A stretch of 46,380 nt of DNA from a virus: the IMG/VR virus record IMGVR_UViG_3300032020_000013, positions 1-46,380 of that record. One strand, written 5' to 3'. Positions 2,799 through 46,380 of this stretch are shown here, piece after piece. The notes under the pieces were generated by a model that saw only the letters and a list, made by a program, of their open reading frames with translations, made no database searches and had not been told where the DNA came from. Position numbers and translations under genes: made by a program. Position 1 is the stretch's first letter. Each line of letters opens with the position of its first letter.

Positions 2799-4802
2799 AT
2801 GCCACAGGTCAGTCAAGATGAACAGGGCTTCGTAAGGTTCTCTGTCCTGAGTCTCGCCAAGGGAGCCTGGACGCATCTATCGCCTCTCTCGACGCCCGAG
2901 GGATTCGCTCCCACCTTTACAAATTTCGACCTGCCCGGGGGCATCCCCACGTCCATGTACGGCGACAGCGATTTCATCGCCACCGCATGGCCGGCCGCAT
3001 GGGGAAACGCCACCCTCCTCTGCAAACGGAAGATTGCGGGGAGTGACCCGACAACCATTCTTGCGGGAATAGGCGGCTACGTCGGCTACTGGACCGGAGC
3101 TGCCTGGGTTGAACTCCGCAACGGTCTTTCTACTGGCGGTCTCCAGTGGTCCTGGGTTCAATACGGAACGGATCTATTCATCAGCAACCTCACTGATGGA
3201 ATCTATCGCTACGATGGGGATACACTTATGCCCGTTGGCGCAAAACCCATAGCGCAGGCAGAACTGGACGAAGCCGCCCTCTGGACAAACGAAACACCAG
3301 ACGCCGTGAATTTCAAAGAGGGGATTGGCAGCGTCTACGTTACGTCGGGCAACCCAGGTGCGAGCGCGGCCTTAACCTTCACGCCGGCGACTACGATGGA
3401 CGTGGCGACAGGTCGATTAAGCGCCAGGACTTATGCTGTGACCAAGGCCACCGGAAGTGACTGCTTCCACTTCTCGTTCAAGCTCTCGAATGGTGCTGGT
3501 TCTACGGTCACAGACACCACGACGACCTTCACGATCACAGACACTCTTGGGAAGTCACTTGCTTGGGGAGCAAACCTGTGGCGTACCGGCAAGAGTACCT
3601 CAGCAGCAGTCGTTGCGGTGAACGACAACAACTGGCACGAGGTTTGGCTGTTTCCGGTGGAGGCAACAGAAGTTGCAACCTTCAACCCGACTCTATGCGC
3701 GACCTTCAAATGGATTGTGACGACTTCGGCAGGTCAGACGAACATAAACGTAGAGGACATCTATGTCACCTACGTCGTAACGATGCCCGCTGTCGCGTAT
3801 CTCGCGGAGTGGAAAAATATCCTCTGGGGTGCCCGGACAACCGCAAATCCTGATAGTTACTTTTTCTCCAAGGTCAGCGGCCCGGACGAGTATTCTGGAA
3901 CCGCCACGAATCCGATCAAAGCCAAGGGCGAGGCGATTACTGGATTGGCAAACTTCTATAACCAACTTACAATTACTGTGGACCATTCGGTGCATTCATT
4001 GAGCGCGACGAATATTACCTCGCCCTATCCCGCCTACCTGTTTGACAATCAACAGGTAACAGACGAGGCGGGATGTTCAAGCCACCACAGTATCGTCAAG
4101 GCCATAAATCGCCTCTGGTGGCTCTACCAACGCGAGATGGTCAGTTATAACGGCACCGGCGTTGTTAAAGAGAGTCTGCCCATTGACGTGACTCTGGCCC
4201 TGATTGATGAGGCGAACCTAGATCGCACCGTTGGTGCAAAATGCCGGTCACTAAATCAGTTGTGGTGGAGTTATCGTCGGTCTGGGGAAGGGGCCAATGA
4301 TCGAATCATCCGGTACGATTATGTGGCGGGTGCCTGGCTTCCGTGCGAGGGAATCAGCACGCCCCTACTCCTTCAGTCATACGCCAGCGGTTCTGAGAAA
4401 CTATTGACAGTCAACAACACCACAAGGAAGATCAAGAAGCAGGCGGACTCGGCGAGTTTGGCCTTCAGTGGCACGAATATCGAGGGCACGATTTGCCTGC
4501 CCCCAATGAGTACGGACACCGCCCTTCAGTGGATCGAGGCATACATCCGGTATCTCACCAACACGGGGACCCTCACTGTGGCGTACCGAATCGTGGACAG
4601 TTACCGGGCGCTTGCGGCGGCGGGATACACTACCATGGAGGCAATCAATCAGGCACTACCGGGAGAACTAAACCAGTTGCGGATTGGGGATCAGGGGACT
4701 GTGTGCCAGATCCGGTTGACTACTTCCGGCGTCCGGGCACAGATTCAACCCCCGATCACCGTGACGACAATCCCGTTGAGTCCGGGACAGAGGTATGTGT
4801 AA
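2799..4802 (+). CDS. Large beta-rich tail/DNA-stabilisation protein
   Basis: The product has 667 residues. Repeated short beta segments suggest a propeller or ring: GGYVGYWTGAAWVEL, FISNLTDGIYRYDGDTL, NRLWWLYQREMVSYNGTG, NQLWWSYRR...RIIRYDYVAGAWLPCEG. In short-tailed phages the stabilisation/hub proteins (P22 gp10-like) are beta-propellers of 470-700 residues encoded after the adaptor, and size and place fit. An inserted domain at about residues 185-330 is rich in Thr and looks carbohydrate-binding-like. The stop overlaps the next start as TAATG. Confidence 0.55.
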   Translation: MPQVSQDEQGFVRFSVLSLAKGAWTHLSPLSTPEGFAPTFTNFDLPGGIPTSMYGDSDFIATAWPAAWGNATLLCKRKIAGSDPTTILAGIGGYVGYWTGAAWVELRNGLSTGGLQWSWVQYGTDLFISNLTDGIYRYDGDTLMPVGAKPIAQAELDEAALWTNETPDAVNFKEGIGSVYVTSGNPGASAALTFTPATTMDVATGRLSARTYAVTKATGSDCFHFSFKLSNGAGSTVTDTTTTFTITDTLGKSLAWGANLWRTGKSTSAAVVAVNDNNWHEVWLFPVEATEVATFNPTLCATFKWIVTTSAGQTNINVEDIYVTYVVTMPAVAYLAEWKNILWGARTTANPDSYFFSKVSGPDEYSGTATNPIKAKGEAITGLANFYNQLTITVDHSVHSLSATNITSPYPAYLFDNQQVTDEAGCSSHHSIVKAINRLWWLYQREMVSYNGTGVVKESLPIDVTLALIDEANLDRTVGAKCRSLNQLWWSYRRSGEGANDRIIRYDYVAGAWLPCEGISTPLLLQSYASGSEKLLTVNNTTRKIKKQADSASLAFSGTNIEGTICLPPMSTDTALQWIEAYIRYLTNTGTLTVAYRIVDSYRALAAAGYTTMEAINQALPGELNQLRIGDQGTVCQIRLTTSGVRAQIQPPITVTTIPLSPGQRYV

Positions 4803-19372: not shown

Positions 19373-19453
19373 CCGGCCCCGACACCGTGCTTATAAGGGG
19401 TGGGCCGGTGAGTCGCTCAACCGGCGAGTGACGTTCGGGGCCGGTAACGCCGG
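19373..19453 (+). promoter_or_regulatory. Structured mRNA leader with competing hairpins
   Basis: An outer 10-bp stem joins 19373-19382 (CCGGCCCCGA) and 19435-19444. Inside it two hairpins compete: GCCGGT 19404-19409 with ACCGGC 19420-19425, or GTCGCTC 19412-19418 with GAGTGAC 19426-19432 (one G-U). Their arms interleave, so both cannot form fully. CCGG-taacg-CCGG at 19441-19453 adjoins the ribosome-binding site of the 19468 gene. A switch or attenuator is suggested; no known riboswitch consensus was recognised. Confidence 0.45.
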
Positions 19454-19467
19454 AGAAGGGAGACACC

Positions 19468-19659
19468 ATGAGCCGAAAAATGAACAAGCTGGATTTCGCA
19501 GTCCTGTACGCCAAGATCCGAGCACTCCCGGAGAGGGACTGGCAGGCACTTAGGGAGTTACGCGAGAACGTCGAAGGGACTGACGTTCTGCCCATTCCCC
19601 ACCGCCGTCCTGGTCGGCCCCGGGTGGAGAAGCCAAAGACTGAACAGTCGGAGGCGTAA
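19468..19659 (+). CDS. Small basic unknown protein
   Basis: The product has 63 residues behind GGGAGACACC. An N-terminal helix (FAVLYAKIRALPERDWQALRELRENV) is followed by a basic, proline-rich tail (HRRPGRPRVEKPK) containing an AT-hook-like G-R-P-R. It may bind DNA. It overlaps the next start by one base (TAATG). Confidence 0.6.
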   Translation: MSRKMNKLDFAVLYAKIRALPERDWQALRELRENVEGTDVLPIPHRRPGRPRVEKPKTEQSEA

Positions 19660-19973
19660 TGACCGCCCAACTCGCCCTTGACCTGCCTAGTGGCCTCGCC
19701 AGGAAACGGCGGGGGATGAGTCGCAACGAGGCCCGCGATGCGTGGTTCCTCTCGTGTATCCGGACGGTGGCGAAACGGATGAGCGGGGAGAAAGGATGGG
19801 TAACATCAGACCGATTGCGAACTTACGCAAGTCTATGGCGCATGAAACCAAGGCACCCTTCAGCATGGGGCAACGTATTCCGGGGGCACGGGTGGGTATG
19901 CGTAGGCAGCGAGCAGTCCGCTATCCCCGGGAATCATGGGCGAAGAATCAGAAGGTGGAGGTGGGAGGGATAA
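19659..19973 (+). CDS. Small winged-helix-like phage protein
   Basis: The product has 104 residues. EARDAWFLSCIRTVAKRMSG, then WVTSDRLRTYAS and AWGNVFRGHGWVCVG, ending GRRIRRWRW, reads as a small wHTH-type domain. Helices are followed by a turn and a basic strand. Similar short proteins ending in R-x-R-x-W occur beside phage replication genes. The function is not known to me. Its stop is only 4 bases from the next RNA element. Confidence 0.55.
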   Translation: MTAQLALDLPSGLARKRRGMSRNEARDAWFLSCIRTVAKRMSGEKGWVTSDRLRTYASLWRMKPRHPSAWGNVFRGHGWVCVGSEQSAIPGNHGRRIRRWRWEG

Positions 19974-19977
19974 GAGG

Positions 19978-20248
19978 GCGCATGGCGAGGGTGCGAGGAT
20001 GCCGGATGGACTCGCATGTAGCAGGCTAGGGAGGGCAATGTAGTAGCCATGCGCATGAGGGCGGCTGACTGTGGCGAAAAGCCGCGGGGCTAGGTTAGTA
20101 GCAAGGGGGTATGCCCCAAAGAGATGGTTGGGTACAGCGACCCCCGCGCCAAGGCCCTAGCCACGGCCAGCCGTCTGATTCAGCCCCAGGGGGAGTGGCA
20201 GATTGCCTGAAAGAAACCGGCTTTGAGTCGGCTCCCCCCTGTGTTTTT
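19978..20248 (+). ncRNA. Candidate structured noncoding RNA (~270 nt)
   Basis: No supported gene occupies 19974-20277. Pairings are GCGCATGGC 19978-19986 with 20046-20054 (9 bp perfect) and TGCGAG 19992-19997 with 20011-20016. Also GTGGC 20071-20075 with GCCGC 20081-20085 over a GAAAA loop, and GGCTAGG 20088-20094 with CCTAGCC 20156-20162. A last stem pairs CAGGGGGAG 20187-20195 with 20232-20241 (one bulge), enclosing hairpins at 20197-20207 and 20217-20231, and is followed by TTTTT at 20244-20248. GGCTAGG also occurs at 20024, a possible alternative partner. No RNase P, tmRNA, 6S or intron core was recognised. Confidence 0.5.
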
Positions 20249-20277
20249 AACAATCGAGTTGGTACTAAAAGGAGAAC

Positions 20278-20448
20278 ATGATGAAGAGCTTGCCGAGAGT
20301 GGTCTATGTGAAGTGGGAGCGTGAGGGGGACGAGGAATATCTACTGGTATCGGAGAAAATGGATGGAATCGGCTCAGATGGTGAGAAGATCGGTGTGTAC
20401 GAACTGAAACAAGTCAAGATCAAGAGGATACGGGAAAGTTTGGAATAA
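20278..20448 (+). CDS. 56-residue unknown protein
   Basis: The ATG (doubled: 20278 and 20281) follows AAGGAG. The sequence is beta-rich: RVVYVKWEREGDEEYLLVSE, GVYELKQVKIKRIRE. It sits alone between two structured RNA segments. No family recognised. Confidence 0.6.
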   Translation: MMKSLPRVVYVKWEREGDEEYLLVSEKMDGIGSDGEKIGVYELKQVKIKRIRESLE

Positions 20449-20451
20449 GAT

Positions 20452-20552
20452 TGCTGGCGCTGCGATGCGGTCCTGGGTAACTTACGGCGTGGGTGGGGAT
20501 GGATACGGGGCCATCCGGATTCGAGGCCGTAGAATGCCGGCCAGCGCCAGCA
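20452..20552 (+). promoter_or_regulatory. Stem-loop leader upstream of 20588
   Basis: A perfect 11-bp closing stem pairs TGCTGGCGCTG (20452-20462) with 20542-20552. Within it TACGGC 20483-20488 pairs with 20526-20531, and GGATGG 20497-20502 with CCATCC 20511-20516, giving a three-tier rod. A tRNA was considered because of a TTCGA-like loop, but the arms do not fit. The element fills the gap before the next gene and could be a leader switch or a processed small RNA. Confidence 0.45.
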
Positions 20553-20587
20553 CTTGTGGCGGCAGATAGTCTCAAGAGGAGAATATA

Positions 20588-20779
20588 ATGGGACAAGCCT
20601 TTCTTTGCGACCGATGTAAAGAGTACCAAACAGGAATTCCGTCGAAACTGGGCGATGCTTCGATTGTGATGGATTTGTTCAAACCACGCTATTACCCCGA
20701 GTACTTCGAACTATGCCAAGCGTGTAAGGATGATCTGAGGAAGATTTTGAAGTCTTGGTGGGACCTCGGCGCAAAATAA
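20588..20779 (+). CDS. Zinc-ribbon protein
   Basis: The product has 63 residues behind AAGAGGAG. C-D-R-C at residues 7-10 and C-Q-A-C near 45 make the metal site. The helical end is DDLRKILKSWWDLG. It is preceded by the structured leader at 20452. Confidence 0.65.
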   Translation: MGQAFLCDRCKEYQTGIPSKLGDASIVMDLFKPRYYPEYFELCQACKDDLRKILKSWWDLGAK

Positions 20780-20816
20780 GCAGGGCCTCTGCGCCCCGTA
20801 AGTTAGAGGAGCGACC

Positions 20817-21191
20817 ATGAACGGACATTGCGAGGGATGCTGCGGGAGCATCCTGACTCCGATTTATCGGGATTTGGGGAACGGAGTGACAGTGGGTCAG
20901 GATTGGTTGCCATGTCCTGGCCTCGACATGCCCGCCGAACCTGCTTCTCTAAGTGCCCGCAACACGGCCCTTACTGTCATGGCCGAGGCCGAGAAGGGCC
21001 GTCTGGATGCCGCAACGGCAGAGGCGGTGCAGTCTGAATGCGCGGGATGCACTGAGAAAGACGCAGAACTCAGCCGCCTCCGCGCCCGCGACGAGGCGGC
21101 GAGAAATCTAGCGAAGTGGATTCGGGCATACCACGGTAATGAGGTCGGCGCTCTTGATCTACTGAAAGGCTGGGAGGAAGCAGGCCGATGA
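20817..21191 (+). CDS. Cys-rich N-terminus plus coiled-coil protein
   Basis: The product has 124 residues behind AGAGGAGCGACC. Residues 5-9 (CEGCC) and C-A-G-C near 75 provide cysteines. The later half is a charged helix (ELSRLRARDEAARNLAKWIRAY). It overlaps the next gene by ATGA. Family unknown. Confidence 0.6.
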   Translation: MNGHCEGCCGSILTPIYRDLGNGVTVGQDWLPCPGLDMPAEPASLSARNTALTVMAEAEKGRLDAATAEAVQSECAGCTEKDAELSRLRARDEAARNLAKWIRAYHGNEVGALDLLKGWEEAGR

Positions 21192-45452: not shown

Positions 45453-46380
45453 AACCGTTAGCACCTTCGCGACGCGCAAGCGATTTGAACTCTCGCCGGG
45501 GCCGTTGTGCCGATTCGCTGATCCCGAGGGGACGGTCAGTTGGATGCGGTGGATCCCGCCCTTCCAGGCCCGGCGTGCCGTGACCGCGGCCGCCGCGCTG
45601 GCGACCCCCAGCGGCACTATCGGGGATTGGTTCCATCCGATCCTGACGCCGGCGGGCCTGGTTGAGACCACCGATTTCATCACTCACGACATGGGCGGAT
45701 TCTGGATCGACCAGTACCTGTGCAGCAGCCGCGACGCCAGCGACGCAAGCATGGGCACCCTCGCGGATGGCGGCGCGAACAAGATCGCCTACCACAGTCA
45801 GCGCGGCGTGGCCCCACGGGTGACCCAGGCGATCGCGCATTATAAGACGTACCTCGTCGCCCGCTTCGCCTCTGGGGCAGGGTTCGTCCGGGGCGACGGC
45901 CCCCAGGTGGCGGCCGCCTACTGGGCCACGAAGGGCGGCCTGTGCACCGACGCCCACTGGTTCGAGGTCTACGTCTGGACGAGGATCAACCGCATTCTGT
46001 TGAGGGGCAACACTGTGGGCTACGACGGCGTGAATCCCAAGACCCCACAGTACCACGGCGACACGTCAGAGCGGGGCCAGCAGGATACCGCGCACCCGCT
46101 GGCCTATGGACTGAGCGTCGCCGGCGGCGGGCCCCCGAGTTGGGACGTGCCGATATCCGACTTTTGCGGAAACCGCTGGGAGTTCGCGGACGGCCTCCGG
46201 CTGTTCGACAATACGATCTATACGGCGGGGAAAATGATCGATCCCACCGCGGCATATTCCGACCCAGATTACACCAATACAGGCCTGACCGTCACTGGCC
46301 CGACGTCGGGCCAGTCGATCGCGACTCTGCGGACCGAGGCGGCCATCTGCATTCATGGCATCCCGGCGACCACGACGACC
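45445..46380 (+). CDS. Variable lectin-fold protein, N-terminal part (continues at 1-416)
   Basis: From the ATG at 45445 to the window end lie 312 codons; joined with 240-416 the protein has 370. The N-terminal ~75 residues form an attachment domain. From about 80 the FGE/C-type-lectin fold begins: H-D-M-G-G-F-W-I-D-Q-Y, then W-F-E-V-Y-V-W-T-R, and near 235 D-F-C-G-N-R-W-E-F. This enzyme-derived fold is used for binding, not catalysis, in phage variable proteins. Codon 270 is GCA (Ala) here but CGA (Arg) in the left copy. The gene follows the fibre genes, fitting a receptor-binding tip. Confidence 0.85.
   Translation, partial: MPETVSTFATRKRFELSPGPLCRFADPEGTVSWMRWIPPFQARRAVTAAAALATPSGTIGDWFHPILTPAGLVETTDFITHDMGGFWIDQYLCSSRDASDASMGTLADGGANKIAYHSQRGVAPRVTQAIAHYKTYLVARFASGAGFVRGDGPQVAAAYWATKGGLCTDAHWFEVYVWTRINRILLRGNTVGYDGVNPKTPQYHGDTSERGQQDTAHPLAYGLSVAGGGPPSWDVPISDFCGNRWEFADGLRLFDNTIYTAGKMIDPTAAYSDPDYTNTGLTVTGPTSGQSIATLRTEAAICIHGIPATTTT
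46142..46380. repeat. Terminal overlap, right copy
   Basis: Same 239 bases as 1-239 with GC instead of CG at 46252-46253. Marks the circular closure; genome length about 46,141 bases. Confidence 0.95.

Follow-up and report, generated by a model that had tools for sequence, protein, structure and literature searches.

A single-copy inverted-repeat element with a variable interior in the gene runs of five related phages

The window (the whole stretch of DNA analysed, a virus record of 46,380 bases) carries in one of its intergenic gaps a single-copy inverted-repeat element, approximately 95-127 nt in length, which is found in the gene runs of five related phages. The arms of the element are conserved, and the spacer between them and the genes on either side have been exchanged from phage to phage. 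Of the readings that we weigh below, the likeliest is that of a cis-acting stem which, within an early polycistronic mRNA, clamps an insert that can be exchanged, and we put it forward tentatively. The claim is smaller than that of an earlier note on this DNA, made from the letters, which had proposed a discrete structured RNA of ~270 nt at 19978-20248; what we describe is short and conserved, and does not amount to a discrete RNA of 270 nt. The coordinates of its parts and of its surroundings are collected in Table 1.

Table 1. Features of the conserved element and its surroundings in the window.
Feature	Position	Strand	Remarks
Upstream ORF, 104 aa	19659..19973	+	
Upstream domain closed by 9 bp	19978..20054	+	Without counterpart in relatives
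Conserved core: inverted-repeat arms and variable interior	20055..20180	+	Covariance model, fold z
5′ arm, GGGCGGCTGACTGTGGC	20059..20075	+	GGCGGCTGGCACGGGC in three relatives, CTGGCTCAGGC in L060
Local hairpin, TGTGGC-GAAAA-GCCGCG	20070..20086	+	Pair probability ~0.95
Variable interior	20076..20159	+	Unrelated in sequence between phages
3′ arm, GCCACGGCCAGCCGTCT	20160..20176	+	Almost unchanged among the five phages
Terminator-like compound stem and TTTTT	20187..20248	+	Private to window phage; fold not above chance
ATCGAGTTGG	20253..20262	+	Also twice in L007 (7123, 7338), once directly behind the 3′ arm
Downstream ORF, 55 aa	20281..20448	+	ATG at 20278 or 20281; ribosome-binding-like AAAAGGAG ahead

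Much of what the note had read from the letters proved correct. The stretch is gene-free, lying between the two open reading frames of Table 1; its 9-bp helix is formed by GCGCATGGC (19978-19986) and GCCATGCGC (20046-20054), GGCTAGG occurs twice (20024 and 20088) and CCTAGCC once (20156), and the final stem is made up of CAGGGGGA (20187) and TCCCCCCTG (20233), with TTTTT at 20244. The proposal that these parts form one structured unit of ~270 nt was not borne out: a 301-nt stretch exhibited a fold z of -1.16, with 16 of 100 shuffles folding as well, and the intergenic gap 19974-20277 as a whole a z of -0.97. When the record was scanned for folding in 120-nt windows (mean -0.18, sd 1.10), the flagged region was no outlier, and none of the gene-free elements A, B and C was extreme genome-wide; many of the outliers are coding. 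Nor are the alternative folds predicted that had been read into the repeated GGCTAGG, the first copy pairing with CCTAGCC at a probability of 0.001 and the second (20088-20094, within the interior, pairing with 20156-20162) at ~0.94. The end of the stretch is terminator-like in possessing a stem and TTTTT, but it is not a canonical terminator and its fold does not exceed chance (z -1.04): the arms of the stem are ~38 nt apart with side hairpins, the T-run begins two bases after the stem, and a terminator scan, which gave no + strand terminator, did not report it.

The element lies between genes of a co-oriented run and is framed by neither a promoter nor a canonical terminator, which argues against the discrete transcript that had been suggested. 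A conserved, foldable, non-coding element does exist, its conserved unit being ~125 nt (20055-20180) and not 270. We likewise agree that it belongs to no recognised RNA class. At gathering threshold the window matched no Rfam family, nor did 19600-20600 at E≤1, and the loci of the four relatives gave only an unrelated, below-threshold match to NEAT1; ARAGORN gave no tRNA or tmRNA match. A retron non-coding RNA was rejected, no match to RVT_1 being found in four records, while 3 of 14 control genomes were positive.

BLASTN with the flagged region revealed no relatives among phage records and no second copy in its own record. A 17-base pattern taken from the 3′ part of the region had four matches in the virus collection, of which L007 is related and the others are due to chance. 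The integrase of L007 is 77% identical to that of the window over 825 bases of DNA, and L007 possesses a homologue of the window's small gene at 19468. Its gap in the same gene run contains the 18-mer CCTAGCCACGGCCAGCCG and GGGCGGCTG, with 77 bases between them, and ATCGAGTTGG behind. Two patterns, the first of which joined both arms, yielded L035 and L047, the remaining gapped-pattern matches being unrelated coding sequence, and a profile of three integrases led to L060, a relative of L035. In L060 the 3′ arm is retained and the 5′ arm follows the same plan, with CTGGC-TCA-GGC for CTGGC-ACG-GGC. Through pattern, protein and covariance searches, then, four other phage records with the core were identified (L007, L035, L047 and L060), each with one copy; the criteria by which these sequences were found included pairing of the 5′ arm. 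A covariance model of the four other phages has 20055-20180 as its only match in the window, with an E of 0.0017, a rough value which, since the relatives had been found with strings from the window, represents a test of consistency and not an independent discovery.

The element is not found in L002, a relative by its AAA-type gene, nor in L003 and L004, relatives by the major head protein. The integrase profile identified 38 loci in bacterial genomes, with no element above chance, and a covariance search of 1187 genomes from three bacterial phyla matched only a terminator behind a sigma-factor gene.

The integrase is common to records G000, G004 and G005. What G006 has in common with the window is limited to short genes, and with G005 it shares intergenic and coding pieces. 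When G004 and G006 are compared, the identical stretches of at least 16 bases are the two arms only (16 and 18 nt). The 67 nt just upstream of the element are 99% identical in L035 and L047, which also share 21 nt at the 3′ arm, but their spacers are unrelated; the spacer itself has therefore been exchanged, not just its neighbourhood. Each of G000, G004, G005 and G006 is closed on itself through direct terminal repeats, which measure 124-239 bases (124 in G004, 127 in G005 and ~237 in G006). At the ends of the window, positions 1-239 and 46142-46380 form a direct terminal repeat of 239 bases which differs only at 111-112 (CG vs GC), and the record, though classed as linear, closes on itself and is probably complete.

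In the alignment of the element the outer pairs join columns 5-15 with 114-124 and the inner pairs columns 19-21 with 108-110, the two being separated by a 3×3 internal loop. The stretch GCCACGGCCAGCCG of the 3′ arm is the same in all five aligned copies, and this arm with 20156-20159 represents the 18-mer common to the window and L007. The 5′ arm (GGGCGGCTG...GGC), which remains complementary to it at most positions, is the more variable of the two, and is aligned as GGCGGCTGACTGTGGC in the window, GGCGGCTGGCACGGGC in three relatives and CTGGCTCAGGC in L060. In the window phage the local hairpin occupies the inner part of the 5′ arm and is preferred, the family's inner 3-bp helix being predicted at ~4%; one outer pair of the window is A-C, and L060 has lost four pairs of the outer stem. 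The spacer between the arms ranges from 52 to 88 nt overall, being 77-88 nt in the window, depending on where the 5′ arm is cut, and 73, 77, 59 and ~52 nt in the others; no similarity is found between the spacers of the window, L007, L035 and L047. Where the window has its upstream domain (19978-20054), the relatives carry other hairpins. No frame stays open across all the copies, and translation of the region, which the note had named as an outcome that would count against it, is unsupported.

Over 20057-20178, a span picked after the relatives were known and not blindly, the window exhibits a fold z of -3.8, with 0 of 300 shuffles as stable, and 2.4% of random 122-nt windows of the record reach z ≤ -3. 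The five cores compared with shuffles gave z values of -3.8, -4.9, -3.8, -3.1 and -2.3, whereas the interiors alone do not fold above chance (z -0.4 to -1.7). It is therefore the arms that carry the signal, and the term structured RNA is justified for the stem only. Pairing is found in 93% of the cells of the alignment and in 16-46% when the partners are slid, a contrast which is partly ensured by the arm-based search. Two-sided compensatory changes, which the earlier note had proposed to look for, are absent (0 of 14 pairs in five sequences); because the 3′ arm is nearly invariant this test is powerless, the shuffle control is uninformative, and covariation neither proves nor refutes the stem. 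Three pairs vary yet are kept by one-sided changes, which exchange G and A in the 5′ strand or C and U in the 3′ strand and result in G-C, G-U or A-U pairs, and the kept G-U pairs favour an RNA of the + strand. The z of the + strand gap is below that of the − strand in L007, L035 and L047; in the window the − strand gap has the lower value (-2.0 vs -0.97).

A second gene-free element in the window (20452-20552) is closed by a perfect 11-bp helix, TGCTGGCGCTG/CAGCGCCAGCA, and has CGGCCAGC in common with element A; its 3′ side (CGGCCAGCGCC..ACTTGYGGCGGCAGAYAG) recurs at 7418-7445 of L007, in the gap after the next gene. Within it, TAACTTACGG (20478-20487) is complementary to CCGTAAGTTA (20796-20805), which is located immediately ahead of the ribosome-binding site belonging to the gene at 20817, approximately one such 10-mer being expected by chance in the stretch searched. 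A third gene-free stretch (19373-19444) is closed by a perfect 10-bp helix, CCGGCCCCGA/TCGGGGCCGG, with a fold z of about -2 that is possibly due to chance; L007 has an 8-bp helix (4547-4630) adjoining the homologous small gene. A hairpin module of 45 nt (GCGTGTGGTG...GGAGACGCCACACGC) is situated just upstream of the element, twice in L035 (445-545) and once in L047 (1800-1857), with a half copy, AAGCGGGCGTGTGGTG, at approximately 1368 of L047. In L007 a tandem GCC-rich repeat at 3110-3300 lies in an open frame and encodes repeated Ala-Ala-Arg-Asp and Ala-Ala-Trp.

The genes around the element may constitute one early operon, as suggested by their common orientation and by neighbours of recombination and replication type. 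If they do, the arms would form a basal stem in the + strand of an early polycistronic mRNA, consisting in most members of 11 pairs, a 3×3 internal loop and 3 further pairs. Such a stem would act in cis on the operon, most likely in mRNA processing, stability or attenuation, and its sequence-specific part would be the 3′ strand. It would tolerate any apical insert, the inserts being exchanged by recombination. A version in which the apical insert on the fixed basal clamp determines how the individual phage behaves, for example in immunity or in the choice of target, with inserts swapped by recombination in the arms, we consider improbable.

A site acting at the level of DNA is a serious though lesser possibility, and a close second in our ranking. 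The element might be a conserved linker or boundary where neighbouring modules are exchanged, or form a hairpin that serves replication or recombination, in which case recombination or a DNA-binding protein, and not RNA folding, would maintain its arms. That the arms stay while the interior and the genes on both sides are exchanged is congruent with such a site, as is the finding that L035 and L047 have nothing in common between the shared upstream sequence and the shared 3′ arm, and the 3′ arm is nearly invariant though pairing alone would permit it to drift. A linker alone, however, does not predict complementary arms, and pairs held as G-U would be mismatches in a DNA hairpin. A replication-initiation gene follows the element in L035 and L060, but is not seen beside the window copy, and the turning points of the GC skew, which is confounded by the strand bias of the genes, lie off the element; a replication origin was rejected on the same data.

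Three further explanations rank lower. A trans-acting small RNA, for instance in immunity or as an antisense RNA, whose scaffold is constant and whose variable domain is specific to the phage, would fit the constant basal stem and the private interior of each phage, which is what a specificity domain would lead one to expect. This is unlikely, given that the longest complement to each interior within the same genome measures 10 nt, a length that shuffled interiors reach as well, that the region has no sigma-70-like promoter and the element no canonical terminator, and that the interiors are not structured beyond chance; an antisense RNA as such was rejected, no complement being longer than chance. 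Somewhat more doubtful is an intrinsic terminator or attenuator internal to the operon. L035 and L047 do read GCCGCTTTTCC after the G+C-rich stem, providing CTTTT in two phages, and the best bacterial chance match of the model is what looks like a genuine intrinsic terminator behind a sigma-factor gene, G+C-rich stems with CTTTT being common look-alikes. Against this, L007 (CTTCAAAT), L060 (CTTCTTCC) and the window (TCTGATTC after the core) have only a short or interrupted T-run, the scan gave no + strand terminator, and 52-88 nt separate the arms. Least probable is chance resemblance or remnant coding sequence: in L060 the element and the end of an open frame overlap and most other pattern matches were chance, but the 16- and 18-mers are shared in register between related records, the model match has an E of 0.0017, and no frame is open in all copies.

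If confirmed, the cis-acting stem would give uncultivated phages a further cis element, small and conserved, unusual in that its stem is fixed and its inside is free. This arrangement makes a regulatory RNA clamp and a hot spot for gene trading directly testable against each other.

Among known systems, the literature searched contained nothing directly comparable to the element except the ESAS of Cluster K mycobacteriophages, which are imperfect inverted repeats of ~17 nt with a variable spacer, located in intergenic regions before non-structural genes (PMC3203893). The element resembles these in that inverted repeats enclosing a variable spacer precede a gene. ESAS, however, occur in many copies per genome, with a spacer of 4-13 bp and on a 13-bp start-associated repeat (PMC3203893), whereas our element is single-copy, has 52-88 nt between its arms, and was found with no start-associated repeat. 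The put RNA of phage HK022 is a cis-acting antitermination RNA (PMC9378689), and its action in cis inside an early phage transcript is comparable to that proposed here, as an analogy of mechanism only. With intrinsic terminators the element shares a G+C-rich stem and, in two members, the CTTTT that follows; it differs from them in that its T-run is not conserved and a long insert lies between the arms. Mosaic phages possess boundary or linker sequences, that is, short conserved sequences between exchanged modules. The element differs from these in having two complementary arms around a variable interior.
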